From contig JAFYZT010000027.1 in assembly GCA_017548605.1 (NCBI GenBank), forward strand, positions 124,001 through 188,000: DNA of 64,000 nt. Reading direction: 5' to 3'. Below are positions 27,849 to 42,898 of this stretch, piece by piece; within the stretch, counting starts at the first letter, position 1, and every line of letters begins with the position of its first letter. A program made the position numbers and the translations under genes. Source of the stretch: Prevotella sp. (lineage in GTDB: Bacteria > Bacteroidota > Bacteroidia > Bacteroidales > Bacteroidaceae). The notes beneath the pieces are model-generated. The model had not been told where the DNA came from, did not search any database, and saw nothing but the letters and a program-made list of their open reading frames with translations.

Positions 27849-29294
27849 ATGACCGCTCTTATGATTATCCAGCTACTGATAGTATTGCTGGCTCTTTGGG
27901 TGGGATCACGTTACGGCAGTCTGGCCTTGGGTGCCATCTCCGGCATCGGACTGGCCCTGTTGGTCTTCGGTTTCTGCATGAAGCCGGGCTCACCACCTAC
28001 CGATGTGATCTACATCATCATTGCGGCCGTCACCTGCGCGGGCATTATGCAAGCGTCGGGCGGCATGGACTGTCTCATACAGATTGCCGAGAAACTGTTG
28101 CGCAAGCATCCCGACCGCATCACCTTCCTGGCTCCGTTGAGCACCTTCTTCCTGACCGTGCTGGTAGGCACGGGTCATGTAGTCTACACCCTCATGCCCA
28201 TCATCTGCGACATCTCGCTGAAGAAGGGAATCCGTCCGGAGCGTCCCTGTGGTGTGGCGTCCATCGCCTCACAGGTGGGCATCACCTGCTCACCTATCGC
28301 CGCCGCCGTGGTAGCCTTCGTTACCATCTCCAACGCCAACGGTTTCGACGTTTCGATACCCCAGGTGCTGATGGTCAGCTTCCCAGCTTGTTTATGCGGA
28401 CTGATGGCTGCCGCTACGGCTTCGTACCATCGCGGCAAAGACCTCGACAAAGACCCGGAGTTCCAAGCCAAACTGAAAGACCCCTTACAGCGAGAGTATA
28501 TCTACGGTGGCGCAGCGACAACTCTCGACAAAGAGATACCGCAGTCGGCCAAAAATGCCGTCTATGTGTTTCTCGGTGCCCTGCTCATCATCGTGTGTTT
28601 CGCCATCTTCCAGGACATCCTGCCGAGCTACTCCACCGTCAAGGCGGTGAAAGACGCGCCTGACTTCACCTTCGCCGATGGCACGGTGGCCAGCGCCGCA
28701 GCACTCGCCAAGGCCAAGGTGCTCATCCCCGGTATCACTGAGATGGGAACGGTACAGCTGAAGATGAACGTGGTCATTCAGATAGTGATGATCAGCGCGG
28801 CTGCCATCATGATACTGTTCTGCAAGGCATCGCCGGTGAAAGCGGTGAAAGGTGCCGTGTGGCAGTCGGGTATGGTGGCTGTGGTGGCCATCTTCGGCAT
28901 CGCATGGTTGGCTGACACCTATTTCTCCAACTATACGAATGAGATGCAGGCGATGCTCGGCGATATCGTGGCCAAATACAACTGGTCCATCGCCTTCGTC
29001 TTCTTCCTCGTCTCCGTGCTCATCAACTCCCAGGGTGCGGTGGTCGTCTCGATGCTTCCCCTAGCCTATTCGCTCGGCATACCCGGACCGGTGCTTCTCG
29101 GTGTGCTTCCCTCTGTGTATGGTTACTTCTTCATTCCCAACTACCCCAGTGATATCGCCACGGTGAACTTCGACCGCAGCGGAACGACGAAAATCGGCAA
29201 ATACCTGCTGAACCACTCGTTCATGATGCCGGGACTGGTACACACCGTCGTGGCCACGCTGGTAGCTTACGGACTGTCAATGCTCTTTTTCTAA
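27849..29294 (+). CDS. Anaerobic C4-dicarboxylate carrier, copy 1
   Basis: 481 residues of the DcuA/DcuB family. Hydrophobic segments alternate with signatures such as ITFLAPLSTFFLTVLVGTGH, SIASQVGITCSPIAAAVVAF, RGKDLDKDPEFQAKL and NYPSDIATVNFDRSGTTKIG. The protein exchanges fumarate, succinate, malate or aspartate across the inner membrane, which suits a succinate-producing anaerobe. It is followed after 19 bp by a close paralogue of identical length, so the two are cotranscribed. Confidence 0.92.
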   Translation: MTALMIIQLLIVLLALWVGSRYGSLALGAISGIGLALLVFGFCMKPGSPPTDVIYIIIAAVTCAGIMQASGGMDCLIQIAEKLLRKHPDRITFLAPLSTFFLTVLVGTGHVVYTLMPIICDISLKKGIRPERPCGVASIASQVGITCSPIAAAVVAFVTISNANGFDVSIPQVLMVSFPACLCGLMAAATASYHRGKDLDKDPEFQAKLKDPLQREYIYGGAATTLDKEIPQSAKNAVYVFLGALLIIVCFAIFQDILPSYSTVKAVKDAPDFTFADGTVASAAALAKAKVLIPGITEMGTVQLKMNVVIQIVMISAAAIMILFCKASPVKAVKGAVWQSGMVAVVAIFGIAWLADTYFSNYTNEMQAMLGDIVAKYNWSIAFVFFLVSVLINSQGAVVVSMLPLAYSLGIPGPVLLGVLPSVYGYFFIPNYPSDIATVNFDRSGTTKIGKYLLNHSFMMPGLVHTVVATLVAYGLSMLFF

Positions 29295-29313: not shown

Positions 29314-30759
29314 ATGTTGATTACCATTATAGAATTACTGGTAGTACTGCTCTGCCTCTACCTCGGTTCGAAGTTTGGCAGTCTGGCGTTGGGAGCCATT
29401 GCCGGTCTTGGTCTGGCTATCCTCGTGTTCGACCACGGTCTGAAACCTGGTACCCCTCCAACAGACATCATCTATATCATCGTGGCAGCCGTCACCTGTG
29501 CGGGCATCCTGCAAGCCTCGGGCGGCATGGACTGGCTCATACAGATTGCTGAGAGACTGTTGCGCAAACACCCCGGGCGCATCACATTCTATGCCCCTCT
29601 GTGTACCTTCTTCCTTACCGTGCTCATGGGAACAGGTCATGTGATGTACACCCTCATGCCCATCATCACCGACGTGGCTATCAAGAAAGGCATACGTCCG
29701 GAACGGCCATGTGCCGTGGCCAGTGTGGCGGCGATGATTGCCATCGTGTGCTCACCCATCTCTGCCGCCGTGGTGGCGTTCTCCACCATCTCGGCACTCA
29801 ACGGTTACCATGTGTCGATACTCCAGATTATCTCCATCACTCTGCCCGCCTGTCTGATAGGCATCATGATGGCCGCAGCATGGAGCAGTCGTCGCGGCCT
29901 CGACCTCGACAAAGATCCTGAGTTCCAGGCCCGCATCGCCGACCCCGAACAGCGTGAGCTCATCTACGGCAGTACCATGACCGTTCTCGACAAGAAAATC
30001 GACAAGAAGGCGAAGATTGCCGTCGGTATCTTTATTGGAGCTATCGTTCTCATCGCTTTGTTAGCTATCTTCCACCATATTCTGCCGTCCTGGGAGCAAG
30101 TGGTCGTGGTTGACGGGGCGAAGGATGTGATGCTTCCAACCGGCAAGACCGTCAGTCCCAGCAGTCTGGCTGAGGCGGGCATCGTCATGGCTGGTGTGAC
30201 GGCGAAAGTGCCGGTGACCATCAAGATGTACCTGGTCATTCAGATTATCCTCATCGCCACGGCAGCACTGATGATTATCATCTGCGGAGCAAAGCCGAAG
30301 ACCGCCGTGGCCGACAACGTATGGCAATCGGGTATGATTGCCGTGGTGGCCATCTATGGTATCGCATGGCTGGCAAACACGTTCTTTTCCGCCCACATGG
30401 CCGATATCGAAAACCTGTTGGGAACAATGGTGGAGAACCACAGATGGACTATTGCCATCATGTTCTTTATCTTCTCTGTGCTCATTAACTCGCAGGGAGC
30501 AGTCGTTGTGGCGCTTCTGCCCGTAGCCTATGCCCTCGACATCCCCGGATGGGTATTGCTGGGCATCTTGCCGTGTGCCTACGGCTATTTCGTAATACCT
30601 AACTACCCCACCGACATCGCTACGGTGAATATGGACCGTTCGGGTACCACGAAGATTGGCAAATACGTGTTCAACCACTCATTCATGATTCCGGGCTTGA
30701 TAGCCGTCTTCGTGAGCACTATCGTTGCCTATTTCCTGAGCTGGATATTTATGAGTTAA
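29314..30759 (+). CDS. Anaerobic C4-dicarboxylate carrier, copy 2
   Basis: 481 residues, same family and length as the preceding gene and colinear with it (LLRKHPGRITFYAPLCTFF against LLRKHPDRITFLAPLSTFF; identical NYP-DIATVN and GTTKIGKY segments). It is a tandem duplicate that has diverged, mainly in the central hydrophilic region near residues 250-300. Both keep all recognisable transport motifs, so they may differ in substrate preference or transport direction. Repeats of the gagcaaggggcagg type follow. Confidence 0.92.
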   Translation: MLITIIELLVVLLCLYLGSKFGSLALGAIAGLGLAILVFDHGLKPGTPPTDIIYIIVAAVTCAGILQASGGMDWLIQIAERLLRKHPGRITFYAPLCTFFLTVLMGTGHVMYTLMPIITDVAIKKGIRPERPCAVASVAAMIAIVCSPISAAVVAFSTISALNGYHVSILQIISITLPACLIGIMMAAAWSSRRGLDLDKDPEFQARIADPEQRELIYGSTMTVLDKKIDKKAKIAVGIFIGAIVLIALLAIFHHILPSWEQVVVVDGAKDVMLPTGKTVSPSSLAEAGIVMAGVTAKVPVTIKMYLVIQIILIATAALMIIICGAKPKTAVADNVWQSGMIAVVAIYGIAWLANTFFSAHMADIENLLGTMVENHRWTIAIMFFIFSVLINSQGAVVVALLPVAYALDIPGWVLLGILPCAYGYFVIPNYPTDIATVNMDRSGTTKIGKYVFNHSFMIPGLIAVFVSTIVAYFLSWIFMS

Positions 30760-30857
30760 GGAGCAAGGGGCAGGGAGCAAGGAGCAGGGGGCAAGAGAAT
30801 ACCCTGATAAACTTGTTTCTTGTACAAGTCAACGACCATACAACCACACTAATTATA

Positions 30858-30891
30858 ATTCGGGGAGCAACCGCTTGGTTGCTCCCCGAAT
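30858..30891 (+). terminator. Hairpin with GAGCAACCGCTTGGTTGCTC core
   Basis: A 15-bp perfect stem (ATTCGGGGAGCAACC / GGTTGCTCCCCGAAT) with loop GCTT. It is identical over its whole stem to the terminator at 40862-40894 and shares its core with 31504-31529. It lies 100 bp after the second dcu gene; the T-run is weak. Confidence 0.65.
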
Positions 30892-31021
30892 CATTATTCA
30901 GATGAATTTAATACATGGGCATTATTGGCTCATTCGGGGCAATTCAATGTAAAAACCATCACTCGAAACTAGTAACCTATCACTCGTCATTCATAACTCC
31001 TCACTCTTCCCTGTCTGGTTC

Positions 31022-31040
31022 CCCCCTCCTTGGGAGGGGG
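31022..31040. repeat. REP-like palindrome CCCCCTCC / GGAGGGGG
   Basis: An 8-bp perfect stem with loop TTG in the gap between the dcu genes and the mirror locus. Confidence 0.6.
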
Positions 31041-31438
31041 AAAGGGGGAGGCTTTAAAAAGGAGGACATGACTCTTCGACACATCCTCCTGCTGAAAAAT
31101 TCACCAAATAATTAGATTCAACGAATCAGTGTATATAATAACTATCTTATAATACAAACTATTTACCATTGTGCGCCTTTATCATTTAGAACATTATACT
31201 CAATGGCCTGTTATTCAGCATTGGGCCATGCTACCGGCGTATCCTTGACGCCCATGGAATCCGTCAAGAGGAGAGTTAAGAATAGTAATATTTTTCACAA
31301 GCTATATTCTGAATTGTTAGTGAATATTTTCTGAAGTGTTTTTAATAACAACCAAATTGAATAATTACATTTGCATATTTTCGGCTGCAAAGGAACAACT
31401 TATAATATGTTATGCAAAAAAACAGCGTATCATAAACA

Positions 31439-31469
31439 GGCCCGTTTGTATTATAGATACAATCGGGCC
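31439..31469. repeat. GGCCCG-TTGTAT / ATACAA-CGGGCC palindrome
   Basis: The outer stem GGCCCG / CGGGCC and inner stem TTGTAT / ATACAA form one long hairpin. A related palindrome is at 35690-35716. Both flank the minus-strand large surface-protein gene. Confidence 0.65.
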
Positions 31470-31503
31470 GATAATGGATACAAATGATGCAAATAGACAA
31501 AAA

Positions 31504-31529
31504 AAGAGCAACCGTTTGGTTGCTCCTTT
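31504..31529 (-). terminator. Terminator of the small-peptide gene A
   Basis: GAGCAACC / GGTTGCTC core hairpin; read on the minus strand it is followed by seven Ts, so it terminates transcription from the peptide A and large protein A side. Confidence 0.8.
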
Positions 31530-31583
31530 AAACGCTATATTGTTATTTAAGGGTAATCACCCATTTTCCTTTTACTTCTCCCT

Positions 31584-31610
31584 CCCTCGAGAGGGCTGGG
31601 GTGGGTTTTA
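31584..31610 (-). repeat. REP-like palindrome after peptide gene A
   Basis: On the minus strand it reads aacccaccccag then CCCTC-TC-GAGGG, immediately after the stop at 31620. Its order and its place after a small peptide gene equal those of the copy at 40773-40799. Confidence 0.65.
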
Positions 31611-31619
31611 GGGTATTAT

Positions 31620-31880
31620 TCACCAAAGAGCTTCATTGGCGCGGCTGGCGAGATCGTCGTAGTCGTCGCCTCCCATCTCCACGGCCTCAAAGTTGCCAAT
31701 GGCCTCCGCATTTTCTGCAAATCCTTCTATCTGCCAGGCATTATTACCGTATTCGCTCTGATCCGTAGAAGCACCCCACTGGCCGTAGCGGTTTAAAGTA
31801 TATTGGCTGGCGCGACACAACATCGAAACCAATTCTGTCTCAATCTTTTCCGTGGTCGGTGCTATATATATCTTTTTCAT
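31620..31880 (-). CDS. Small leader-like peptide A (MKKxYIxPxTEKIE family)
   Basis: 86 residues, start MKKIYIAPTTEKIETELVSM, then LCRAS, a Gly/Asn/Asp-rich middle and end ASRANEALW. It shares MKK-YI-P-TEKIE-E---M-C at the N-terminus and a Glu-x-Leu-Trp ending with peptide B at 40527-40769, while the middle differs. There is no signal peptide and no membrane segment. Similar MKKxYxxP peptides are, from memory, common and uncharacterised in Prevotella. A conserved front with a variable middle looks like a precursor peptide, but no modifying enzyme is nearby. It lies 207 bp downstream of large surface protein A on the same strand. Confidence 0.7.
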   Translation of the reverse strand: MKKIYIAPTTEKIETELVSMLCRASQYTLNRYGQWGASTDQSEYGNNAWQIEGFAENAEAIGNFEAVEMGGDDYDDLASRANEALW

Positions 31881-31894
31881 TGTTCTTTTTATTT

Positions 31895-32085
31895 AATCGG
31901 GAGTTAAAGTGGAAGTAAATTCGCTTCGCTCATGGAAGTTAAAGTGGAAGTTAAAATGGACATTACTCCTACTCGGCATTTACTCTTTTACCTTTTTACT
32001 TTTTTACCATTCAAAGCTATTGTCCTGCACGAAGTGCTTAACTTCCTTTTATAACTACCCTTTTTACTTCCTACTATAACTTCCT
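31895..32085. repeat. GGAAGTTAAA module with TTC-loop mini-hairpins
   Basis: Between peptide A and large protein A. Contains attcgcttcgctc, ggaagttaaaatggacattactcc-type words (31919-31965), tttttacctttttac words and tcctgcacgaagtgctt (32022-32042, GCAC-GAA-GTGC mini-hairpin) followed by aacttccttttataact. Much of the block recurs inverted at 61750-61860 and partly, in the same orientation, at 45318-45440. Confidence 0.8.
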
Positions 32086-32087
32086 TA

Positions 32088-35000
32088 TTACTTTACCATG
32101 TATTTCTTTCCGTTCACAATATAGAGCCCCTTTGGTAGACCCTCTATCTGACCATCAGTGCGCACCACTTGACCATTGATGTTATACACCACATTCATGT
32201 GAATCTCACGTACCTCCTCGCCGCGCTCCTGAGCATCAGCGATGATTTCTTCGATGGCTGTAGCCTCCACTTGTGCCCATTCACCGAAGACAACATCACC
32301 ATTGGCATTTGCTGAACCACCGTCAAGTGCCTCGATGTTGTCAATCGCATCCTGATCGGGCGTGATGATAGCTGTGTAGAGCGTCCATTTGCCCGTTCCG
32401 GCAGCCATCTTACGGTAGAACTTCGGGTATTTCTCTTCTCCTTTTGTGGCGAGGAAATAAGAATACTGCGGTATGTCACTCTTATCGTTCGCCTCTTTAT
32501 AGCCATCTGTTTCGATATTGCGTCCCAGGTATCCGTGGAAAGTATAGGAACCTCCGCCACCGAGCGGACTGGTAAATTCTGTTGTAGCATCGCCGGTCGT
32601 AGCTTTACGTGTAACTTTTCCTTTCTCTTCCAGATAGGTGAGTTCTGCATTTGTCGTGGCCATGCGCCTCACACCGGCGATGGTACACTGCGAAGCCATT
32701 CCCTGGTGCTCCACGGAGGCCGGATGTATCATATAGGGATGGCCGGCCACAGCCAGGATGTTCTCAATCTGGTAGTACAGATTGTTTTCTGTGGAACCTA
32801 CCTGTGCATTTTCGTTGAAGGTCACAATCGTGCTGGTCTCATTGCCATTGTCATCAAGACGTACATACCTGTATTTCTTAAATGTTACTGGGACAGGCTC
32901 GGTGATGGTGTATGTGCCATCATCGTAGCGGTTATACCGATAGCCTACATAATCCATATAGTGGGCCTCTGCCACTTCATCGAAATGGAGCACCAAATTG
33001 TATGCATCAGCATCATCGTCCACAATCACCTCGGCGCCCTTGAATTCCACGATCTCACATTTCTGGTTGAAAGCTTCGAAGAGTTGGGTGTCACTGACAT
33101 TCCACGGGAAGCACATGGTGTACCATGTCTCGTCATACAGCCTCGAGTAATTCGTTGCACTGCCAGCCGACAAGGCAAACTGCCGCCAGCCGTAGATGGT
33201 CTGACCTTCCACTTTGCCTGCTTCAAAACGTACTTTATAGTCGGCATCGTTTGTTGTCGGATGGTCTTGTGCCGGCCATTTGTGCCCTTCCTGATCGGTA
33301 AACTGGTATTCGTCGGATATCGATGTCTTGCCATCGAGTCGACTAAACTGCGCGAGCGACGGTGCACCGTCCACCACCACGCCGTTGATGAAATTGCTCA
33401 GTTCTTCGGGGTAATGCAGGTTAACCAGACATTGGTTTGCTCCGAGATAACGGCCTCCAGACATTGCCTCTTGGTAGTATGCGGGCACCTGACTGGATTG
33501 AGAATTAGCTATTGTCGTTCCAGCAAGGTTATCGTCATGCAGAGCAGGGGTGTCCTCACCAATGATGTCTTTTCGAGTAAAGGAACTGTTCTTGTCGTAG
33601 TAGAAATTGGTTACGGCATATATCTTCGGCAGTCTGCTTGGGTTCGTGGCCAACAGGTACACATCAGTAAGACCTGAATTAACAAAAGCCTGATGTTCGA
33701 TGCGTTCCAAGCCATCGGGAATGGTGATGGAGTGAAGGCTCATGTTCAAGAAGAAAGCTCTGTTGCCAATATATTCACAAGTGCTCGGAATACGGATAAA
33801 TTCCAGATTCCAGCATTGCTCAAACATTTGATCGGCAATGTCGGTCACGCCTTCACCCATGGTGAAGTGCTTCAAGTTCGTGCAGAACATAAATGATTTC
33901 TCACCGAACGTGCATGAGTTCTTTAATGTGATCATCTCCACGTCAACCAGACTTCGGCACTCATAGAAGGCACCGGCATCCACATTCGTAATTGTGCTAG
34001 GCAAAGTGAGCGATGTCAGTGCTGCGCCATGGAACGCCTCTACGCCGATGGAGGTATAACCTTCGGGAATCTCTATCTCCATCAATCCAATTACCTCAGC
34101 ATCGTTGCTGGTAAAGAGTCCCGGGGGAACTTCCGTGTTTCCCGTCGGCAGTTTGCAGGTGTATACGTCCTCAACATAATTCCGAAGGAAATAGAGGGCG
34201 TTGGTGGAGGTAACGGTAATCTTGCTACCGTTAGTCTCGTTGCCTGTACTACCGTCCCAAGTACCCTGATATTCTTCCTTGGTGGTATAGCTTATGCTCA
34301 CTCCCTCTTCAAACGTTGCACCGGTGAAGTCGAAATAGTGGAGGTTGGCGGAGGTGAACACCCGCTTGTTTTCAACATTGCTATGTTCTTTCCACAAGTC
34401 TTCCTCACCGTAGAGTCCGGCCATGTCCAACTTGTTGATGTCGTCGGCCATCGCCCCGTATTTATTCACAAAGGCTTGTACGCTGTTCTCCTGCCATGAA
34501 TAGAGGGCCAGCCGTTTGGTCTGTAACATCGGCGTAGCGCCAAGAGAGCGGCCTCCGCGCGTTCCGGACCATGTGGGCAGCGACTCAACGGCGTAGGTCA
34601 GCGAAGCGGCAACTAACAGGTTGGGGTTGGTTGTGTTCAGTCCGGCAATATTGTCGGCCAACTGTTTTCCGCTGTAACCATTTTTACCGTCGTGGTCGTC
34701 GTCCTTGACGTCGGGCAAGATGATATACTGTAGGTTCGACAATGCCATCCCGTTGATGTCGGAGAGGGTGAAAGAGGCTTCGCTGAAGTCGATGTCGGTG
34801 AATGTGGCCCAGCTGGTGATGGAGCTGGATTTCATGGCAGCGAAGTCGGTGCTGTTTAGCGGTCCTTGGACAATGAGTTTTTTTCTTCCATCCGGCAAAT
34901 CATAGTTGAAGCCGGTAGCCGTCAAAAAGGCGGCCAAGGCACCCTCCTTATTGACGATAATGGTCTGTGTTTCGGGAGTGTCGTCCCCCGTCACTTCATA

Positions 35001-35096
35001 CCCGTTCGCATCTCCGGATGTCCAGGTGCGAAATGGTTCAGCATGGATGCCCAAGGACAGCATAAACATGGCTGACAATAGTAATACTTTCCGCAT
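32088..35096 (-). CDS. Large secreted BspA-like leucine-rich-repeat protein A
   Basis: 1002 residues. A signal peptide (RKVLLLSAMFMLSLGIHAE) leads into an N-terminal region, then BspA/LRR_5-type repeats around residues 340-500: IPEGYTSIGVEAF, LPSTITNVDAGAFYEC, IPSTCEYIGNRAFF, IPDGLERIEHQAF. The C-half has conserved blocks GWRQFALSAGS and YTMCFPWNV and ends with a sorting-tail-like segment (VVYNINGQVVRTDG, then GLPKGLYIVNGKKYMVK), resembling type IX secretion or related C-terminal signals. Those blocks and the tail are shared with protein B at 36240-40505, so the two are paralogues. BspA proteins are surface adhesins; the target is unknown. Confidence 0.8.
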   Translation of the reverse strand: MRKVLLLSAMFMLSLGIHAEPFRTWTSGDANGYEVTGDDTPETQTIIVNKEGALAAFLTATGFNYDLPDGRKKLIVQGPLNSTDFAAMKSSSITSWATFTDIDFSEASFTLSDINGMALSNLQYIILPDVKDDDHDGKNGYSGKQLADNIAGLNTTNPNLLVAASLTYAVESLPTWSGTRGGRSLGATPMLQTKRLALYSWQENSVQAFVNKYGAMADDINKLDMAGLYGEEDLWKEHSNVENKRVFTSANLHYFDFTGATFEEGVSISYTTKEEYQGTWDGSTGNETNGSKITVTSTNALYFLRNYVEDVYTCKLPTGNTEVPPGLFTSNDAEVIGLMEIEIPEGYTSIGVEAFHGAALTSLTLPSTITNVDAGAFYECRSLVDVEMITLKNSCTFGEKSFMFCTNLKHFTMGEGVTDIADQMFEQCWNLEFIRIPSTCEYIGNRAFFLNMSLHSITIPDGLERIEHQAFVNSGLTDVYLLATNPSRLPKIYAVTNFYYDKNSSFTRKDIIGEDTPALHDDNLAGTTIANSQSSQVPAYYQEAMSGGRYLGANQCLVNLHYPEELSNFINGVVVDGAPSLAQFSRLDGKTSISDEYQFTDQEGHKWPAQDHPTTNDADYKVRFEAGKVEGQTIYGWRQFALSAGSATNYSRLYDETWYTMCFPWNVSDTQLFEAFNQKCEIVEFKGAEVIVDDDADAYNLVLHFDEVAEAHYMDYVGYRYNRYDDGTYTITEPVPVTFKKYRYVRLDDNGNETSTIVTFNENAQVGSTENNLYYQIENILAVAGHPYMIHPASVEHQGMASQCTIAGVRRMATTNAELTYLEEKGKVTRKATTGDATTEFTSPLGGGGSYTFHGYLGRNIETDGYKEANDKSDIPQYSYFLATKGEEKYPKFYRKMAAGTGKWTLYTAIITPDQDAIDNIEALDGGSANANGDVVFGEWAQVEATAIEEIIADAQERGEEVREIHMNVVYNINGQVVRTDGQIEGLPKGLYIVNGKKYMVK

Positions 35097-35840
35097 TTTC
35101 TTTAAATAGTTGATAATAGTTAGTTAAAACTGATAATTCGTTACTTAGAGTTGCATTTTTCTTTCAGTCTACAATCATCGATTTTTGAAACACGGCTGCA
35201 AAGGAACGACTAATGTTTCGTTCATTGTTACAATTTGTGTAACATTTACACCCATTATTTGTAACATAGAGACGATTTGAAACCTACAAAAAGGGATTTG
35301 AACTCAATGTACGGATAAGGAGTTAGAAGAAGTTATAGAAGTTAAAGTAGTTAAGCCGTATGCCCCCATAAAAAAACGAAAATTCGCGGATAATTCGCGG
35401 TAATTAGCGTAAACGAAAAATACTTCACAAGAATGGGCCATCTTTTTTCACGCGAATTCCCATGAATTGACCGTTAATTACCATAAATATAATTAATAAT
35501 GATAACTCGCGGCTCCTTCACGGTAATTCAATGTAAAAACATCACTCGCACTTATAACTCGTCACTCGTCGCTCGTCGCTCATCACTCATAACTCGACAC
35601 CCGTCACTATTTATGTTTTTGTGTTCCTTTGTCGGATAATTTTTGTTATTGTGTCGGAAAAAATATGTTCTTGTGTTCTTTTTCGCGCTCCCATTTGTAT
35701 TTTTGATACAAGTGGGCCGAAATTGATGATAAAACCCATCGTTTGTTAAGAAAATTTCACTTTGTGTGCGCACACAGATACCTTAAATGTTGTTAATCAA
35801 TCTTAAATGTATGCAGATTGTTTTTGTTTAATTATATAAA
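35097..35840. repeat. Gap between the divergent surface-protein genes
   Basis: No gene is supported in the 1.1 kb between 35096 and 36240. It contains a weak minus -7 box TTCCTTTGC (35198-35206), a guttural gagttagaagaagtt/gttaaagtagttaagccgtatgcc block (35322-35367, repeated at 40932-40977), aattcgcgg-type repeats (35375-35530), cactcgtcgctcgtcact words (35535-35600), gttcttgtgttc words resembling the glnS array (35605-35680), a palindrome (35690-35716), and the promoter of gene B. Confidence 0.7.
35690..35716. repeat. CCCATTTGTAT / ATACAAGTGGG palindrome
   Basis: An 11-bp stem with one mismatch and loop TTTTG; related to the hairpin at 31439-31469. Confidence 0.6.
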
Positions 35841-35854
35841 ATATGTACCTTTGC
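35823..35854 (+). promoter_or_regulatory. Promoter of large surface protein gene B
   Basis: TTTG (35823-35826), a 19-bp spacer and TACCTTTGC (35846-35854) match the consensus fully. Transcription would start near 35861, giving a leader of about 380 nt before ATG 36240. Confidence 0.75.
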
Positions 35855-35860
35855 CGAAGT

Positions 35861-36239
35861 TTTGCGAAAAACAAGAATACAAACTATGAACCCCTTGGTG
35901 ACACAAAACCTTTGAAACAAGACGAATTTAGCGAAAAGTGTATGACATCGTTCCGGCACTGGAAACTAAACAAGAAGAAAGCCCCTTCCCATCCCTCCCG
36001 AGTGGAGGGCGCAGGTAGTCCCCTCGCGTAGGGACTGACTTCATGTCTGTCCGAAAACCATACAATAGTTGGAACGGATAAACAAATATTAACCCATTCA
36101 TGATAATTCATGATTTTCCATGGCAATTCATAGTGCAAATACGGAAATGGAAAAGAGCTACAGGGTAATCTCTCACCCCTCACCTCTTACCTCTCACCAC
36201 TAAACATTAACAACAACCAAATAATTAATTACAAACAAC
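35861..36239 (+). promoter_or_regulatory. Long 5' leader of gene B with GC-rich palindromes
   Basis: The leader holds a REP-like hairpin (CCCTCC / GGAGGG, 35993-36009), a second stem in agtcccctcgcgtagggact (36018-36037) and a tctcacccctcacctc repeat (36170-36198). Short frames on either strand (35843-36031, 35884-36183) cross these repeats and are not convincing genes. Confidence 0.5.
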
Positions 36240-39200
36240 ATGCAAAGACTATTACTGTTTTTCACGATGTTCTTGGCAACCGCAATGGGTGTCAAGGCAG
36301 CACCAACGACTTGGACCGACGGCACCAACACCGTCGAGTACGAAGTAAACGGCAATGAGGCAAAGATTAAAGCGGGCAATGCTGGTGCGGTGGCCGCTTT
36401 CCTCGCATCCGCAGATGCCAGTGCAGTCATTAACAGCAACGCTACGACATTGAAATTGGAAGCAGGTACCCCGGGTAATCCAGGTACTTTGAATTCTGCC
36501 GATTTCCAGGCCCTGAATTCTACAAACTATTCTGGTTTGGCTAGTTTCACGAAATTTGAGTTGATGGGTGAGGTGAATATGTCGCCCACTAATGCTCTCT
36601 CTGAGATGCGCCTTGCTAATGTGAAGGAGATAAAGGTAAAGGGTGCCGAGGTGAAAGCGGGAACCGACACATGGGACATCTTCCAAGATGCAGGTAGCAA
36701 GACCGAGAATGTGGCCACCATCGATGTCAAAGAGCCGGGAGCGCTGACTGCCGCTTTGGCTGCTTTTGCCGCTATCGATGCTGCCGCTGTCGACTGCCAG
36801 GTGCTTCATATCTCAGGCTTGGATAACAACCATCAAAGTGACAACCTTACTGCTGAGGATCTGTCGGCACTGGGTAATGTCAATGTGGAAACACTCGACT
36901 TGCAAGACCTTACGACAGGAAGTACGGGCTATTCGTTCGTAAATAACTATGTGAAACGTGTTATCCTTCCCGATGGATGGACAAAGGCACAAGTGAAGGC
37001 TTTTGGCGAGGCACAGACTTCCAGCAATTTCGAATGCTGTCTCAGCCAATCGACAAATGTTGATAATGATGGCAATTCGTCAATGGATGCTTACGTCAAA
37101 AAATGCGGTACGCTCTTCGAGTGTGTCGATCACATCACATATCATGGGTACAATGATGGTGATGGTAATAATGGTACCATCTCAAAATTGGGTGTTATCA
37201 ATAATTCCACCTTCTCGATGGGCAAGCTGAAGTATGTCAGCATCAGCGGCTTCCCCTCGGCACGCGACTATGTCAACGGTAAGCAGGACTTTGCTACTGC
37301 TGATGGACACTATGGTGAGAATGTGGCTGCCGACGAGACCAAATATACAGAGAACTCAGGTATGGGTGGTACCACTCGTACTAATGTGGGTCCTTACAAT
37401 CTTGTAGGTGCCCTCCAAGGTGTAAATGCGATCAGGCTTGACCTGGAGGATGCCGTGATTCCCGAGCAATATAATATCGACCTCACCTTCAGCTGGGTAA
37501 AATCAGTAGGAACAGCTACCAAGGAGATTAATTTCCCTAACAGTCCTGAAGTGGTGACTATACCCGCCGACTGTTTCAGTTCAGGTAGTTTTAACCACCT
37601 TGAGGAAATCTGCATCCCTGGCTATATCAAATATATCCGCACACGTGCCTTCTATAGCTCTACACAGGTGCTCCGTCACGTTTGGACCACCAGCACCAAG
37701 ACACTGGCTGAGGGCGAGGTTGACCACACTGTCTATGACAATGGTACCTACTTGGTGAGTGACCCCGACAATGTGGACCATTACGGACACGCCCCACTCA
37801 CGAGCACTATTTGGAACTGCGCAGGTGAGGGCACTGGTACCGGTACTCCTCGTTACGGAACCATCACCCTGCCGGCAGGCCTTGAACTCATCGAGAGCAA
37901 CTCGTTCTCTGCCAGAAGTGTCAAAGACGTTTATGTGCTTAACGTACATGCCCCTGAATGCCATGTAGATGCTTTCTCTACCATCATGTACTTCGGTAAC
38001 AACACCGTTGACCCGACAGCCATTGACGAGGAAGGCATGATTACTCGAGATGCATACGCTCAGGATGCAGTGAATGGTGAATTCTATGCCATGTTGCACT
38101 ATCCCCGTGAGTGCGGAACCCCTGATATCCAGCGCTATACCGATGTGACACGTGAGTACTCCGTGGCTACCACGCTCCGCGACGGAAAAGGAAACGTCAT
38201 CTATTTCCCCAACATGAGTGAGTTCAACCGCGCTTATCTGCAGGGTACTACCGGTTATCTGTGGGAAGCATGGGACACCGAGCGTATCCCCGACATGGGT
38301 AACAACGGCGATGCCAACTCTTTCAAGAATCAGCATGTCAACGGCTTGACGGGACATACTACTGAGGCGCAGACACTGGGTAACACTCATTACAATGAGA
38401 ACAATATGACCGACCCCGACAAGACCGACCGTTCATTCTACGACGTGCGTCTGGATGCAGACGGTCAGCCGACATTGGCCAAACCTACCGACCTGAAATG
38501 GTACTACGACCAGACTCGTAACGGAAAGCAGCTCTATCCCGAGATGGAGTATACCAACACCACAGAGTATATCGGCCAGCAGCAGAAGATGGATGCCCAG
38601 GGACACTTGCTTTATGTGCAGGGAGACTGTAACTATGTGCAGGACTACGAATTTGTGAAGCAAAGTGATGGCGAACTGGTCTGGGAACTCAACGTCACTC
38701 CGAACGACAACGGCAACTACGTTCGTGATTATGAATATCAACAAAATGCCAATGGTGAATTCTATCATCCTCTGGTAGGAGGCGCTACTGATGCATCTCC
38801 ACAGCCTTGGTACCAGCGTACGCTTTCCTATGAAGAATGCGATCAGAGCGTGGCTACACATGCAGGTCCAAATGGAAATACAGGTTGGTTGATTACTATA
38901 GAACAATGGGGAAACGGCAGTGGCTATCCTTGGGCTCTGAATACCGTTAAATTCTATCGTGAAGTAGCTTCCTATCAGCAAGTGGATTATTCAAACGGTA
39001 GTTACTATGTAAGCGAGAATTTCGCTCGATGGAGTGATACAGCTACAGATTATTTCTCAAATATTAACGGCACCCGTTACAACAGGGTTTATAAGGACAA
39101 CTACCGTACCTATAACAGCGCTACTGACGACGGTGAGCCGCGATACGACGTGACCGACAATGGCATGCGTGCCTACGCCGGTGCTTCCGACGATGCTGCA

Positions 39201-40505
39201 GGTTACCAGCGTTATCATAAGTCGTACATCCCCTATACCTATCGTGAGTTCGACTCTTCGAAGGACGATGCTAACGAGACACGCTACTGCCCAGATATGG
39301 AGGATGTGTACAAGATCAACCGCGGCGATGCCCATGACTATCGCGGATGGCATCAGTTCACACTGGCAGCTTACGCCACTATGAGCGATGAACCCTTCAC
39401 CCCGGTGAAGTTCTACCAGAATGACAACGACTGGTGGACCGTTTGTCTGCCTTACGACCTGAAGTACAACGATATGATCCTGTTCTTCGGTAATCAACAG
39501 ACGGGAGACATCCCCTACCTGAGCAAACTGATGTATGTGGTGCGCGACTACGACCTTGAGCAGATTACCCTTATGTTCTCGAACAACCTGATGGTTTACA
39601 AAGAGGACATCACCGGTGACAATGTGCATGGCGACATCGACAACACCACTAAGTACACTGCAGCGGAACTGGCAGACAACCCTGTAATCCTTCACAAAGG
39701 TGTGCCTTACCTCATCCGTCCGAACCTCGCCAACAATGCCAATCGCTCATTCGACGTGTACCTTTCATCGACCGACGACCTCTATCAGCGACTGATTGAT
39801 GCTCAGAACGTAGGTGGTGGTGCTCTGGAGACCTATATCTACAAAGGCGAATACACCGTGCCGGCATACGTGGTGGGTACAACTACCGAATCGACCACCG
39901 GTAGCAAGACGTTGCAGATGTGGGGCACCTCTGGAGATGCTGTCACTTTCGGCGGCTATTCTAAGACCTACACCAGTGGCAACATCACCTATAAAGGTGA
40001 GACTGTATCAGCACAGCTTTCGGATCAGTTCACCTATACCTTCGTGGGTAGTTTCTTCCTCTCGCTCATGCCGCAGTACAGCTACTTCCTCGGTTGGGAC
40101 AGCGAGAACAACCGTGCCGGATTCTGGTATAACCGCACGCCGGACTATGTGAACTACACCTGGAACAACCAAACGGGTATTATCTGCCCGAACTTCGATG
40201 TGCAGAATACGCTTATTGACCCGGCAACGGGACTTAACGACCCCGCACGCTGGAGTTTCCGCAACCTTGCCAATGACGACCTTATCGGTGTCTCCTATCC
40301 TGCCAACGGCTATACTTGGGACTTTGGCGGTGCTGCTCCAAGCGAGAGCACTGGCATCGAAGAGGTGGCTACGACAACAACGACGACTGTGAACAATGGT
40401 GTAGTCTATACCATCAACGGTCAGATGGTGCGCACCGACGGCAGCCTGCAAGGTCTCTCGAAGGGCATCTATATCGTGAACGGCAAGAAATATGTGGTTA
40501 AATAA
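36240..40505 (+). CDS. Large secreted surface protein B, paralogue of A
   Basis: 1421 residues. The signal peptide (QRLLLFFTMFLATAMGVKAA) is followed by a region aligned in pattern with protein A (VAAFLASADASAV, LNSADFQALNS). One BspA-like unit (CIPGYIKYIRTRAFYSS) and a YPRECGTPDIQRY-containing segment correspond to LHYPEELSNF in A. A long Tyr/Asp/Asn-rich middle (about residues 690-1030) is absent from A. The shared C-half has DYRGWHQFTLAAYA, WTVCLPYDL, MPQYSYFLGW and the sorting-tail-like VVYTINGQMVRTDG, then GLSKGIYIVNGKKYVVK. Probably surface-exposed. A small peptide gene follows after 21 bp. Confidence 0.78.
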   Translation: MQRLLLFFTMFLATAMGVKAAPTTWTDGTNTVEYEVNGNEAKIKAGNAGAVAAFLASADASAVINSNATTLKLEAGTPGNPGTLNSADFQALNSTNYSGLASFTKFELMGEVNMSPTNALSEMRLANVKEIKVKGAEVKAGTDTWDIFQDAGSKTENVATIDVKEPGALTAALAAFAAIDAAAVDCQVLHISGLDNNHQSDNLTAEDLSALGNVNVETLDLQDLTTGSTGYSFVNNYVKRVILPDGWTKAQVKAFGEAQTSSNFECCLSQSTNVDNDGNSSMDAYVKKCGTLFECVDHITYHGYNDGDGNNGTISKLGVINNSTFSMGKLKYVSISGFPSARDYVNGKQDFATADGHYGENVAADETKYTENSGMGGTTRTNVGPYNLVGALQGVNAIRLDLEDAVIPEQYNIDLTFSWVKSVGTATKEINFPNSPEVVTIPADCFSSGSFNHLEEICIPGYIKYIRTRAFYSSTQVLRHVWTTSTKTLAEGEVDHTVYDNGTYLVSDPDNVDHYGHAPLTSTIWNCAGEGTGTGTPRYGTITLPAGLELIESNSFSARSVKDVYVLNVHAPECHVDAFSTIMYFGNNTVDPTAIDEEGMITRDAYAQDAVNGEFYAMLHYPRECGTPDIQRYTDVTREYSVATTLRDGKGNVIYFPNMSEFNRAYLQGTTGYLWEAWDTERIPDMGNNGDANSFKNQHVNGLTGHTTEAQTLGNTHYNENNMTDPDKTDRSFYDVRLDADGQPTLAKPTDLKWYYDQTRNGKQLYPEMEYTNTTEYIGQQQKMDAQGHLLYVQGDCNYVQDYEFVKQSDGELVWELNVTPNDNGNYVRDYEYQQNANGEFYHPLVGGATDASPQPWYQRTLSYEECDQSVATHAGPNGNTGWLITIEQWGNGSGYPWALNTVKFYREVASYQQVDYSNGSYYVSENFARWSDTATDYFSNINGTRYNRVYKDNYRTYNSATDDGEPRYDVTDNGMRAYAGASDDAAGYQRYHKSYIPYTYREFDSSKDDANETRYCPDMEDVYKINRGDAHDYRGWHQFTLAAYATMSDEPFTPVKFYQNDNDWWTVCLPYDLKYNDMILFFGNQQTGDIPYLSKLMYVVRDYDLEQITLMFSNNLMVYKEDITGDNVHGDIDNTTKYTAAELADNPVILHKGVPYLIRPNLANNANRSFDVYLSSTDDLYQRLIDAQNVGGGALETYIYKGEYTVPAYVVGTTTESTTGSKTLQMWGTSGDAVTFGGYSKTYTSGNITYKGETVSAQLSDQFTYTFVGSFFLSLMPQYSYFLGWDSENNRAGFWYNRTPDYVNYTWNNQTGIICPNFDVQNTLIDPATGLNDPARWSFRNLANDDLIGVSYPANGYTWDFGGAAPSESTGIEEVATTTTTTVNNGVVYTINGQMVRTDGSLQGLSKGIYIVNGKKYVVK

Positions 40506-40510
40506 TAAAG

Positions 40511-40517
40511 AAGGAGG
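40511..40517 (+). promoter_or_regulatory. Shine-Dalgarno-like site of peptide B
   Basis: AAGGAGG lies 9 nt before ATG 40527. Strong Shine-Dalgarno sequences are rare in this window, so this suggests efficient independent translation of the peptide. Confidence 0.55.
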
Positions 40518-40526
40518 AACAAAACA

Positions 40527-40769
40527 ATGAAAAAAGCATATATTCAACCGGCAACGGAAAAGATAGAGGCTGAAGTCATCCAGATGATTTGCGGCAGCAA
40601 GGACAAAGGACGTTACGCAGATGGCGACCCAACAGTGACCGACGGTAAGAGATTGCCCACATTCATCGGCGAGACCGCCGAGGGTATTGACCCCTTCTGC
40701 GGTCATGGCCAAGGTACCGATGGTGCCGGAAACCGCACCGACGAAGGTCTCTGGGACGACGAGATTTAG
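40527..40769 (+). CDS. Small leader-like peptide B (MKKxYIxPxTEKIE family)
   Basis: 80 residues, start MKKAYIQPATEKIEAEVIQM, then ICGSKDKGR, a Gly/Asp/Thr-rich middle with one more Cys (PFCGHGQG) and end DEGLWDDEI. It shares its N-terminal pattern and the Glu-Gly/Ala-Leu-Trp ending with peptide A. No signal peptide. It is cotranscribed with large protein B (21-bp gap) and followed by a REP-like palindrome and a strong terminator, as peptide A is. Function unknown; a processed or exported peptide linked to the surface protein is an inference. Confidence 0.72.
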   Translation: MKKAYIQPATEKIEAEVIQMICGSKDKGRYADGDPTVTDGKRLPTFIGETAEGIDPFCGHGQGTDGAGNRTDEGLWDDEI

Positions 40770-40772
40770 AAA

Positions 40773-40799
40773 CCCACCCCTGCCCTCCCAAAGGGAGGG
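40773..40799 (+). repeat. REP-like palindrome after peptide gene B
   Basis: cccacccctg followed by CCCTCCC-AAA-GGGAGGG, 3 bp after the peptide B stop. Confidence 0.65.
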
Positions 40800-41266
40800 A
40801 GCGAGGGATGAGTGATAAGTGATGAGTTACGAGTTACGAATTCAAAACTCCACATAAATATTTCGGGGAGCAACCGCTTGGTTGCTCCCCGAATTGTTTT
40901 TTAGAATTATTACATGATTAACAGGAATTAAGGAGTTAGAAGAAGTTAAGAAGTTAAAGTAGTTAAGCCGTATGCCAGAGTTAGAATTTTGCGGAACTGA
41001 ATAATGATAGACGGAGTAATGGCATAACTACTGAGCGTAGCGATAACTTCTTAACTCCTTTACTACCCATAGTTGAGCGGATGCGAAAATCGAATTCATG
41101 AAGATTAATGGCTTGTTCGCGGTAATTTGTGTGGAAAAACTTCTTACATGAATTGCCAGAAATTAATCACAAATTACCAGAAATTAAATTAATGAGAATT
41201 GATGGCTTATTCGCGGTAATTTGTGTGGAAAAAAACAGTCGTAACTCATCACTCATCACTCGTAAC
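40800..41266. repeat. Repeat-filled gap between peptide B and comEC
   Basis: Contains gagtgataagtgatgagttacgag words (40808-40845), the terminator (40862-40894), a gagttagaagaagtt / gtagttaagccgtatgcc block (40932-40977) identical to 35322-35367, ggagtaatgg words (41000-41060), aattcgcgg/aattaccag words (41085-41235) and actcatcactcgtaactc words (41240-41273) that run into the last codons of comEC. No gene is supported. Confidence 0.75.
40862..40894 (+). terminator. Terminator of peptide gene B
   Basis: The stem TTCGGGGAGCAACC / GGTTGCTCCCCGAA with loop GCTT is followed by TTGTTTTTT. Its stem is identical to the hairpin at 30858-30891. Confidence 0.85.
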
Positions 41267-42898
41267 TCATCTTAGTTCTTTCGTTACTCTCTTATTCCGA
41301 TAGCGGGAGAAGAGGAAGAGGAGAATAAAAAGAGCGGCATAGATAAGGATGACGTGAAGACGGGAGAGGGTGATGTTTTCTATGTGGCTGGCAGGGAGGG
41401 AGGCTATCCACCGGAGGGCGGTGTTCTGGAAATCGACGACCCAGATGAGGGGCTGGGCGACGAGCGACTGTGCCGCAGGCCACCATGACAGGAGGAGCAT
41501 GGCGGCAGTAAGGTAAAGGATACAGATGGCTAGCGGTATTACGAGGAAATTGGTGAGCAGGAAATAGACGGAGAAACGTCCGAAATAATACATTGTCAAA
41601 GGAAAAGTACCCATCTGCGCACAAAGAGAAACGACAACCATCGCCCATGACCAGCGGAAGAAGTGACGAGTGTTGAGTGTTGAATGTTGAGTGATGAGTG
41701 TTGAATGATGAGTATCGGGGGAGGGATGGAGCCAGCGTTCGGGAATGAGGGCATAGATTGGCTTAAAGAACAAGAGGATGAAGAGGACGGCGAGAAACGA
41801 CATTTGAAAACCAACATCGTAGAGGTAGAGCGGGTTCCACAGAAGCATGATGATGGCTGTAAGAGCGAGCGTATTAAGCGACATACGGTCGCGATTAGCA
41901 AGAGCAACGAGCGAATAGACGGTAATCATCACCGCTGCACGCACTACCGAGGGTGATAGTCCAGTGAAGAAGGCGTAGGCCCAGATACCAAGGATGACAA
42001 GCGTCTCGCGCAGCCATCCCAACCGACGGTAACCAACGACGAGCACCAGAAGGGCATAGATGATACCTATATGCAGCCCCGAAAGGGCGAGGACATGCGA
42101 AGCACCGGAGATGGAATAGACCTCACGCAGGTCGTTGGTGAGCCTTGACTTGTCGCCGAGGGTCATGGCGATAGCTACTGCCAGACGGTCGTCGTCAAAT
42201 CCCAAGTGTTCGTATTCACGGAGCATAGACTGACGCTGCTGGAGGGCTGCGAGAGCTGTCCTGTCAAGACGGGAGAGCGGTGACAGGTCAATGGCCACCT
42301 TACGCCACTGGTTCCAGTAGACGAAGGAAGTGGCTACAAAGCCACGGCAACGGAGGAAGAGGGGGTAGGAGAAATGTTGAGTGTTGAATGTTGAATGTTG
42401 AATGGTCGCTTCGCGATGAGAAAATGAAAATTTTTGAGTGGCGGATTCGCTATCATACGGGGAGATGAGGGTAGCACGGGCGAGGAAGCCATCGCCGAGA
42501 GCAAGACGTTGGTAGCGGTGGGCTACGGTATCGCGGAGCAGGGACACCTTAACCTTGCGGCCATTGAGACGGCCACCAACGAGCTGAAGATCGAAACGTA
42601 CCACCCTACCCCGCTGCTGCGGCTCACTGGTAATAACACCCTGGTACACTATGTCACCCTCAGGCAGGTCAACACGCTCAGCATCGAGATGGTGTGCCAT
42701 AACAGTGGCTCCAAAGGCCAACACCGCCAGGAGAATGACGAGGCTCTGCACCCGTTGCCAGCGGTGTATGAGCAAAGCAAGGATGAGAAGGACCACCATC
42801 ACCCCGAGACACGGCCCAAAGGGCAGCGACAGCTCATAAGCGAGGGCTATACCTGCACAAAGAGCGATGCAAACGGGGAAGAGCGGAGCGAGACGCAT
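41267..42898 (-). CDS. ComEC/Rec2-family DNA-uptake channel
   Basis: 543 residues. N-terminal hydrophobic segments and an OB-fold-like DUF4131 region are followed by the Competence domain with the conserved YSISGASHVLALSGLHIGI and many membrane spans (LAVLFILLFF, MVVVSLCAQMGTFPLTMYYFG). The C-terminal metallo-hydrolase domain of longer ComEC proteins is absent. Two stretches, EATIQHSTFNTQHFSYP (42373-42425) and DTHHSTLITQHSTLNTRHFF (about 41666-41712), are in-frame translations of the aacactcaacattcaac repeat family and are not typical ComEC sequence. The frame stays open, so the gene may still work. It would transport single-stranded DNA across the inner membrane. Confidence 0.85.
   Translation of the reverse strand: MRLAPLFPVCIALCAGIALAYELSLPFGPCLGVMVVLLILALLIHRWQRVQSLVILLAVLAFGATVMAHHLDAERVDLPEGDIVYQGVITSEPQQRGRVVRFDLQLVGGRLNGRKVKVSLLRDTVAHRYQRLALGDGFLARATLISPYDSESATQKFSFSHREATIQHSTFNTQHFSYPLFLRCRGFVATSFVYWNQWRKVAIDLSPLSRLDRTALAALQQRQSMLREYEHLGFDDDRLAVAIAMTLGDKSRLTNDLREVYSISGASHVLALSGLHIGIIYALLVLVVGYRRLGWLRETLVILGIWAYAFFTGLSPSVVRAAVMITVYSLVALANRDRMSLNTLALTAIIMLLWNPLYLYDVGFQMSFLAVLFILLFFKPIYALIPERWLHPSPDTHHSTLITQHSTLNTRHFFRWSWAMVVVSLCAQMGTFPLTMYYFGRFSVYFLLTNFLVIPLAICILYLTAAMLLLSWWPAAQSLVAQPLIWVVDFQNTALRWIASLPASHIENITLSRLHVILIYAALFILLFLFSRYRNKRVTKELR
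41666..41716. repeat. Repeat tract inside comEC, site 2
   Basis: gagtgttgagtgttgaatgttgagtgatgagtgttgaatgatgag-type words lie inside the coding frame, encoding the His/Ser/Thr-rich stretch of ComEC between the WLHPSP and RWSWAM segments. Confidence 0.8.
42373..42425. repeat. Repeat tract inside comEC, site 1
   Basis: aatgttgagtgttgaatgttg words followed by AATGGTCGCTTCGCGATGAG at 42401-42420. The first 19 bases of this last string recur exactly at 55191-55209, upstream of badF, next to the same kind of words. Confidence 0.85.

Follow-up and report, generated by a model that had tools for sequence, protein, structure and literature searches.

Among the sorting tails of the type IX secretion system (T9SS), the short C-terminal domains (short CTDs) have been characterised only recently. 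Peptides with double-glycine leaders, a further point of comparison here, are marked by a GG or GA cleavage site together with a C39 exporter. In Prevotella intermedia, the accessible part of the published description gives the short CTD as a tail of 43–55 residues with a PT/GI cleavage region and the motifs B, D and E (PMC11969387). According to the accessible part of a review, type B cargo of the T9SS clusters with cognate PorP/SprF, and the selection of T9SS cargo is an open question (PMC10202324). In this work, we analyzed a locus within a 64,000-nt stretch of Prevotella sp. DNA (G000:C20:124001-188000, hereafter the window), where two divergent genes encoding large proteins, A and B, with predicted short CTDs are each followed by a small gene encoding an acidic peptide. 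Short-CTD cargo is already known; the linked, partner-matched peptide family did not turn up in the open-access literature or the libraries searched.

Large protein A (1002 residues; 32088..35096, minus strand) and large protein B (1421 residues and hence 419 longer; 36240..40505, plus strand) are encoded on either side of a 1143-bp gap (35097..36239) containing dispersed repeats. The gene for peptide A (86 residues; 31620..31880, minus strand) lies 207 nt past the stop codon of A, and that for peptide B (80 residues; 40527..40769, plus strand) lies 21 nt past the stop codon of B. Both large and both small genes were found where an earlier sequence-only reading of the window had placed them, in mirror-image order. 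In peptide A, a conserved, leader-like N-terminal segment of 26 residues (31803..31880, minus strand; defined from the peptide alignment) precedes a middle part of the A type, while peptide B combines an A-like N-terminal segment with a B-type middle. On balance, we lean towards the interpretation that each cassette encodes a T9SS short-CTD adhesin-like surface protein and a dedicated small acidic accessory peptide.

The association of peptide genes with short-CTD genes was monitored with a tail profile (a hidden Markov model, HMM) built from tails of the window's own genome, A and B included, which detected 69 places in that genome at E ≤ 0.001, again with A and B among them. The DNA pattern for MKKxYxxP occurred at eight sites in the own genome, seven of them directly 3' of a short-CTD gene, with a probability of 5e-17 under a positional null and of 6e-11 under a null that assumed 2700 genes, 69 of them tail genes. 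Altogether, 27 peptides were recognised after the 69 short-CTD genes (70 rows minus one duplicate, L093/L059; 29 regular-expression matches minus two taken as chance, L049 and L112), and in the own-genome contrast a peptide followed 25 of 65 tail genes vs. 3 of 57 other genes (Fisher, 8.8e-6). A similar picture was obtained for 62 named loci, fetched via protein similarity irrespective of peptides, where peptides were present after 40 of 84 short-CTD genes vs. 8 of 200 other genes (Fisher, 1.3e-17); by eye, six of these eight resembled chance frames. The genus was surveyed in 17 genomes, where 46 peptide-like sites could be classified and 31 of them directly followed a tail gene; this count was made from 67 sites after dropping 12 antisense MKKRYxxPS frames, four sites that were too short, two that were too long and three at contig edges. 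The recurring MKKRYxxPS..C.PSVQP frame (L121 1687 and 12 sites in the G001-G017 loci), which mimics the peptide pattern and occurs in the majority of the genus genomes sampled, was taken as the antisense of a conserved gene. Beyond the genus, peptides after short-CTD genes occurred in certain named loci of Bacteroidaceae, Paraprevotella and Bacteroidales, and none of the 11 pattern sites inspected there (of 21) had a pair of peptide and short-CTD gene.

Homologues of A and B were collected by searches with A and with B in 150 genomes of the genus, together with a named-genome scan, which yielded at least 25 close cassettes. Twenty-five of these, including both in the window, were analyzed further: seven are B-type, that is, members of a clade with 100/99 support, and the remaining 18 are A-type. 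The peptide was present in all 25 close members examined; in six homologues (G039 C24, G154, G006 C26, the B copy of G097, G082 and G155) it is overlapped by a longer spurious open reading frame (ORF) or has an earlier upstream start. All of the more distant B matches G050, G082, G136 and G155 also carried a peptide, as did the distant named matches L222, L224, L229 and L234. In L222, from the cultured species Prevotella denticola (NCTC13067), the peptide ORF begins 6 nt past the short-CTD gene. Thus, the sequence-only reading was right in that peptide and surface protein stay linked: homologues of the large proteins generally have the adjacent peptide, and peptides do not follow unrelated genes at equal frequency.

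The peptides also match their partners in type. Those of A-type cassettes tend towards W.NEG and an (S)R(G/S)(K/N)..LW(D/E) end, and those of B-type cassettes towards DP(F/Y)..HGQG..G.GNR, the middle of peptide B reading GE..EG.DP(F/Y)..HGQG..G.GNR. With leave-one-out profiles of the middle alone (residue 27 to the end), the subfamily of the partner protein was assigned correctly for all 25 peptides, the smallest margin being 17.8 bits. In line with this, distances among the middles correlated with those among the partner proteins (Mantel r 0.67, n = 25) more closely than did distances among the N-terminal segments (0.31), and the same profile was observed within the A-type (0.49 and 0.19, respectively). 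Judged by these profiles and distances, different surface-protein families each have their own peptide type. Since linked genes have a common ancestry, this match shows a stable pairing over deep divergence rather than binding.

Peptides A and B could be aligned end to end (29 of 87 positions identical, E = 5e-11), and the peptides of the A/B family range from 66 to 97 residues in length. They are acidic, with isoelectric points of 4.1–6.5 for whole peptides (n = 21) and a median net charge of −7 (n = 108), and by crude hydropathy they have no evident signal peptide. Among 108 non-redundant peptides encoded after tail genes, at a median distance of 19 nt from the stop of the large gene, the N-terminal segment follows the consensus MKKxYIxPx(I/T)E(V/I)...(M/L)L(L/A)(A/G)S, in which Y and P were set by the search and a bias towards MKK arises from loci fetched by the MKKxYxxP pattern. 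Conservation drops about 20 residues past the Tyr, and the part beyond is variable. A hydrophobic-x-small-Ser motif was present in 67 of the 108 peptides (7.3 expected from shuffles), and a Trp followed by an acidic residue near the C-terminal end in 78 (22.4 expected). This layout of a shared segment followed by a variable part recurred in the 76 peptides from loci fetched without the MKK pattern, of which 41 start with MKK and 62 with MK, 47 have the Ser motif (5.2 expected) and 63 the Trp-acidic end (17.5 expected). No family was assigned to the peptides in Pfam, NCBIfam, PHROGs or PDB sequences, except for one of nine rows with E = 0.08 to DUF2173, which was taken as chance. The ratio dN/dS was 0.06–0.48 in all 12 related pairs of peptides, which were hand-picked, and on this measure the peptides are shown to be real proteins under purifying selection.

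Proteins A and B are homologous, with 26% identity over the C-terminal 423 residues (E = 2e-19) and a further N-terminal block (E = 1e-8), and the shared blocks reported earlier, GW(R/H)QF, C(F/L)P and QYSYFL, were recovered. The C-terminal domain common to both (GWxQF ... HPYMIHP ... YFLG) has no Pfam or NCBIfam name at the cut-offs. Protein A comprises a hydrophobic signal-like N-terminus, a leucine-rich repeat (LRR) region of the BspA type (LRR_5, approximately residues 338-480), the family-specific C-terminal domain and a short CTD. At 141.6 bits, its LRR_5 (PF13306) match places A among BspA-type proteins, the gathering score being 27.7; the 26 bits obtained for B stay below that score, and B is not assigned to this group. 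Protein B likewise shows a signal-like N-terminus, the family C-terminal domain and a short CTD, with a Big_3_4 match below the cut-off at 1056-1103. The maximal 10-residue mean hydropathy at the N-terminus was 2.70 for A and 2.66 for B, a crude measure rather than the output of a signal-peptide program. In a structure model of A (mean predicted local distance difference test score, pLDDT, of 47), only stretches of the N-terminal part at 40-130 and the LRR region were confident, and a helix predicted at residues 2-16 falls within the low-confidence part; matches from a search of PDB sequences (query A6) were confined to the LRR region. This helix and the hydropathy values both lean towards a signal peptide. 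The nine strong named matches of the A family among the matches listed were all from Prevotella or Prevotellaceae. In its own genome, the only relative of B extending past the tail was A, while 13 other places matched just the last 50–75 residues or so and one more weak match contained stops.

The tails of A and B (32088..32210 on the minus strand, about 40 residues, tail HMM E = 2.6e-20; and 40383..40505 on the plus strand, also detected with the tail HMM) are less alike than the near-identity previously claimed, sharing 65% over the last 40 residues. Both have the features of short CTDs, namely a length of 40–55 residues at the C-terminus, a cleavage-site motif, and motifs B (Y..xG), D (GxYI) and E (basic). 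Short tails bear a weak likeness to the long form of the T9SS type A signal, TIGR04183 (10 of 16 rows, best E 4e-5); the tail of B reached 12.5 bits (E = 0.11), under the cut-off of 23 bits, and in the library scan at E up to 1 neither A nor B matched TIGR04183. SprA (TIGR04189) was present in the own genome with 2675.5 bits and in none of 14 control genomes; since SprA was the component searched, the T9SS was scored as present on finding it. Because their tails match the short CTD and SprA is encoded in the genome, it is very probable that both proteins are cargo of the T9SS.

Other cargo with and without peptides was compared by Pfam scans of hand-chosen proteins, 20 of 27 peptide-bearing and 20 of 42 peptide-less. 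Enzyme domains above the cut-off were found in none of the former vs. seven of the latter (Fisher p 0.008), these being cellulase, M6, pectinesterase, C10 (twice), S9/esterase and GH53. Ten of the peptide-bearing proteins had no domain match, and the rest had LRR_5, cleaved adhesin, cohesin, Ig-like or regulatory, starch-binding or chitobiase-C-terminal domains. We regard this contrast in enzyme domains as a lead. Two short-CTD proteins of the own genome (L031 and L033) carry cohesin and dockerin-like domains, and each is then followed by one common peptide type.

As to what the peptide might do, the sequence-only reading had argued that peptide and surface protein are linked and so probably act together. 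Support for the linkage is good; that the two act together is something we infer. The common N-terminal segment would be read by one shared factor, which could be an exporter, a processing protease or the secretion pathway itself, and the variable middle would bind its own cargo. The peptide might then be a cytoplasmic escort that acts before export by Sec/T9SS or, with the N-terminal segment as an export leader, a small surface subunit; processing might take place at the hydrophobic-(A/G)-S motif. A wider generalisation, which we put forward tentatively and hold to be somewhat doubtful, is that Prevotella-type bacteria possess a large leader-plus-core peptide family of cargo-specific partners of short-CTD T9SS adhesins, in which the common N-terminal tag would lead to the same machinery and the exchangeable core to one adhesin family.

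Several observations weigh against a dedicated accessory peptide. In the own genome, 42 of the 69 short-CTD genes had no recognised peptide, so that the peptide must be dispensable for short-CTD export in general, and 15 of the 46 classifiable peptide-like sites in the genus were not behind a tail gene. A distant match (L231, 23% identity over the whole domain) had no peptide, and 13 weaker B matches were left out of the peptide count. The structure model of peptide A had low confidence (mean pLDDT 54, from an alignment of nine rows), and thus neither fold nor interface supports binding. In the domain comparison, the cargo was mostly scanned over its C-terminal 550 residues or so, and several proteins are mutual paralogues. 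Genes encoding long CTDs above the TIGR04183 cut-off were followed by a real peptide in none of eight cases (p 0.045), a contrast with short-CTD genes that is suggestive only, since two of the eight also match the short-CTD profile, and the remaining six give a non-significant value (0 of 6, p 0.08). Moreover, tight linkage alone, without interaction, would give matching trees. These last two points would equally fit a bystander, i.e., a peptide gene with a general cell function that hitchhikes in the operon at a median gap of 19 nt. We consider this quite improbable, given that the peptides accompany many unrelated cargo families and rarely non-CTD genes (8 of 200), and that no peptide was swapped between A- and B-type cassettes, even within one genome (25 of 25).

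An independent secreted or processed product, be it bacteriocin-like, signalling or similar to ribosomally synthesised and post-translationally modified peptides (RiPPs), would share only its transcript with the surface protein and carry a leader of about 25 residues cut near (A/G)S. The shared N-terminal segment followed by a variable part would be expected of such a product, as would the excess of the hydrophobic-x-small-Ser motif in both peptide sets and the 15 of 46 sites located apart from tail genes. This possibility is unlikely, if worth keeping in view: the variable part tracks the subfamily of the neighbour and is generally acidic, no recurrent neighbour resembling a modifying enzyme or an exporter was seen by eye in the lists of unannotated ORFs from loci of A/B homologues, and a survey of Bacteroidales RiPPs gave, in its accessible part, no such class (PMC10352776). 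Finally, given their shortness and the absence of a family match apart from the one row mentioned, the peptide ORFs could be thought of as chance or regulatory frames rather than proteins. Such a view is hardly tenable with dN/dS under 0.5 in each of the 12 pairs and residues conserved across 108 peptides; in addition, a preliminary count made with a faulty gene list gave 21 of 52 vs. 4 on the reverse strand and 2.4 in shuffles.

The mirror order of the locus had been attributed to an ancient local inverted duplication of a two-gene cassette. In line with such an origin, the two arms share the tail and the start of the peptide, also as inverted DNA similarity, and these were the only inverted blocks longer than 45 nt between them (114 nt at 75% and 74 nt at 72%, respectively); shorter inverted matches were hairpins, dispersed repeats or pairs of 21–24 nt at 71–76%. 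Further, among 105 pairs of A- and B-type cassettes, for which 15 of the 18 A-type rows were used, the tail and the peptide segment of the window pair were the most alike by protein identity, with the segment tied with the pair of G039 and the window's B, and at the DNA level the pair ranked third for the tail and second for the segment. However, in a tree of the C-terminal domain with the CTD tail removed, the window's A grouped with proteins from other species (support 89/83), while its B fell inside the B-type clade (100/99), which has relatives in other species. Forcing A and B as sisters was rejected (p-AU 3.6e-8, approximately unbiased test), which, with the model applied, rules out local inverted duplication of the cargo domain. 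In addition, the peptide middles belong to different old types, the hairpins of the two arms point in the same direction and have a third copy, and in genome G097 (L205) an A-type and a B-type cassette stand in tandem rather than inverted. We regard a duplication that made both arms as highly improbable; by the evidence of the tree, two old lineages, A and B, meet in the window, each with relatives elsewhere. Large protein and peptide cassettes were also observed in tandem at L204, L212, L214, L217 and L218.

The N-terminal segment of peptide B showed an identity of 0.54 both to that of peptide A and to that of the A-type G039, vs. at most 0.38 to any B-type segment. The tail of B, with 0.67 to its nearest B-type relative, G006 C26, and 0.65 to A, was not clearly A-like. 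From these values we weakly infer, post hoc, a swap of the peptide B start between different cassettes, by which local recombination may have made it A-like.

With regard to DNA elements, a terminator-like hairpin (GAGCAACC/GGTTGCTC) lies 3' of the A arm (31506..31525, minus strand, with a T-run on that strand), and one with the same core 3' of the B arm (40862..40893, plus strand). The sequence-only reading had reported matching hairpins on the two arms and had overlooked a third copy beyond the left arm (30865..30884, plus strand), after a gene ending at 30759; a 48-nt stretch around this copy is 90% identical to 40858-40905. The GAGCAACC hairpin has three copies in the genome at up to two mismatches, all of them in the window (30865, 31506 and 40868) and in plus orientation, so the mirror symmetry of the terminators is only apparent. 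The cccacccc palindrome, previously taken as part of the cassette, proved to be a dispersed repeat with 78 genome places at up to one mismatch, 20 of them exact, and a cassette-specific palindrome was ruled out since the element is dispersed genome-wide. A copy of the dispersed CCCACCCC repeat, not cassette-specific, lies at 31591..31607 (minus strand). A direct repeat of about 48 nt (35316-35364, in the gap between A and B, and 40929-40976; 98% identical) has other genome copies at approximately 85–95% and is thus a dispersed element. An Rfam scan of 30700-41300 gave no match at gathering scores, and neither sigma-70-like sites (13 observed vs. 16.8 expected) nor terminator-like sites (10 observed vs. 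9.2 expected) were in excess. To the left of the locus, two adjacent ORFs of 481 residues (27849-29294 and 29314-30759), apparent tandem paralogues, resemble membrane transporters and may be DcuC-like.

If the proposed function is correct, the cargo-matched small genes would be candidate cargo-specific factors for the T9SS in gut and oral Prevotella, and small proteins unnamed in the libraries searched would gain a context; should the leader-plus-core interpretation also be true, they would represent a new kind of secretion partner system. With one small gene and one surface protein each, the cassettes permit direct tests. No description of these peptides was found in the open-access literature; subscription papers and small-protein catalogues lay outside the search, and the peptides may therefore be catalogued there without context.

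Compared with BspA-type LRR_5 surface proteins, A has a strong and B a weak LRR_5 match, and their common C-terminal domain is unnamed in Pfam and NCBIfam at the cut-offs. The peptides resemble double-glycine and RiPP precursors of Bacteroidales in having a conserved N-terminal segment that ends in small residues and is followed by a variable part. They differ from them in that the motif is mostly (A/G)S and not GG and that the variable part follows the neighbouring large protein; moreover, no modifying enzyme was noticed nearby by eye, with no search aimed at exporters. The main text of the P. intermedia report, as far as accessible, makes no mention of downstream peptides (the words "downstream" and "operon" occur 0 times), and its short-CTD cargo is otherwise like A and B, with a tail of about 40–55 residues, a (T)GI-like cleavage region, Y..xG, GxYI and a basic end, and with LRR-dominated and adhesin-like cargo being common (PMC11969387). 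Judging from the accessible part of the work on type B cargo and PorP/SprF, the likeness to the present cassettes lies in a cargo-specific accessory encoded beside its cargo (PMC10202324), whereas in the window the accessory would be an acidic peptide that lacks an evident signal peptide, and the tails of the cargo belong to the type A kind.

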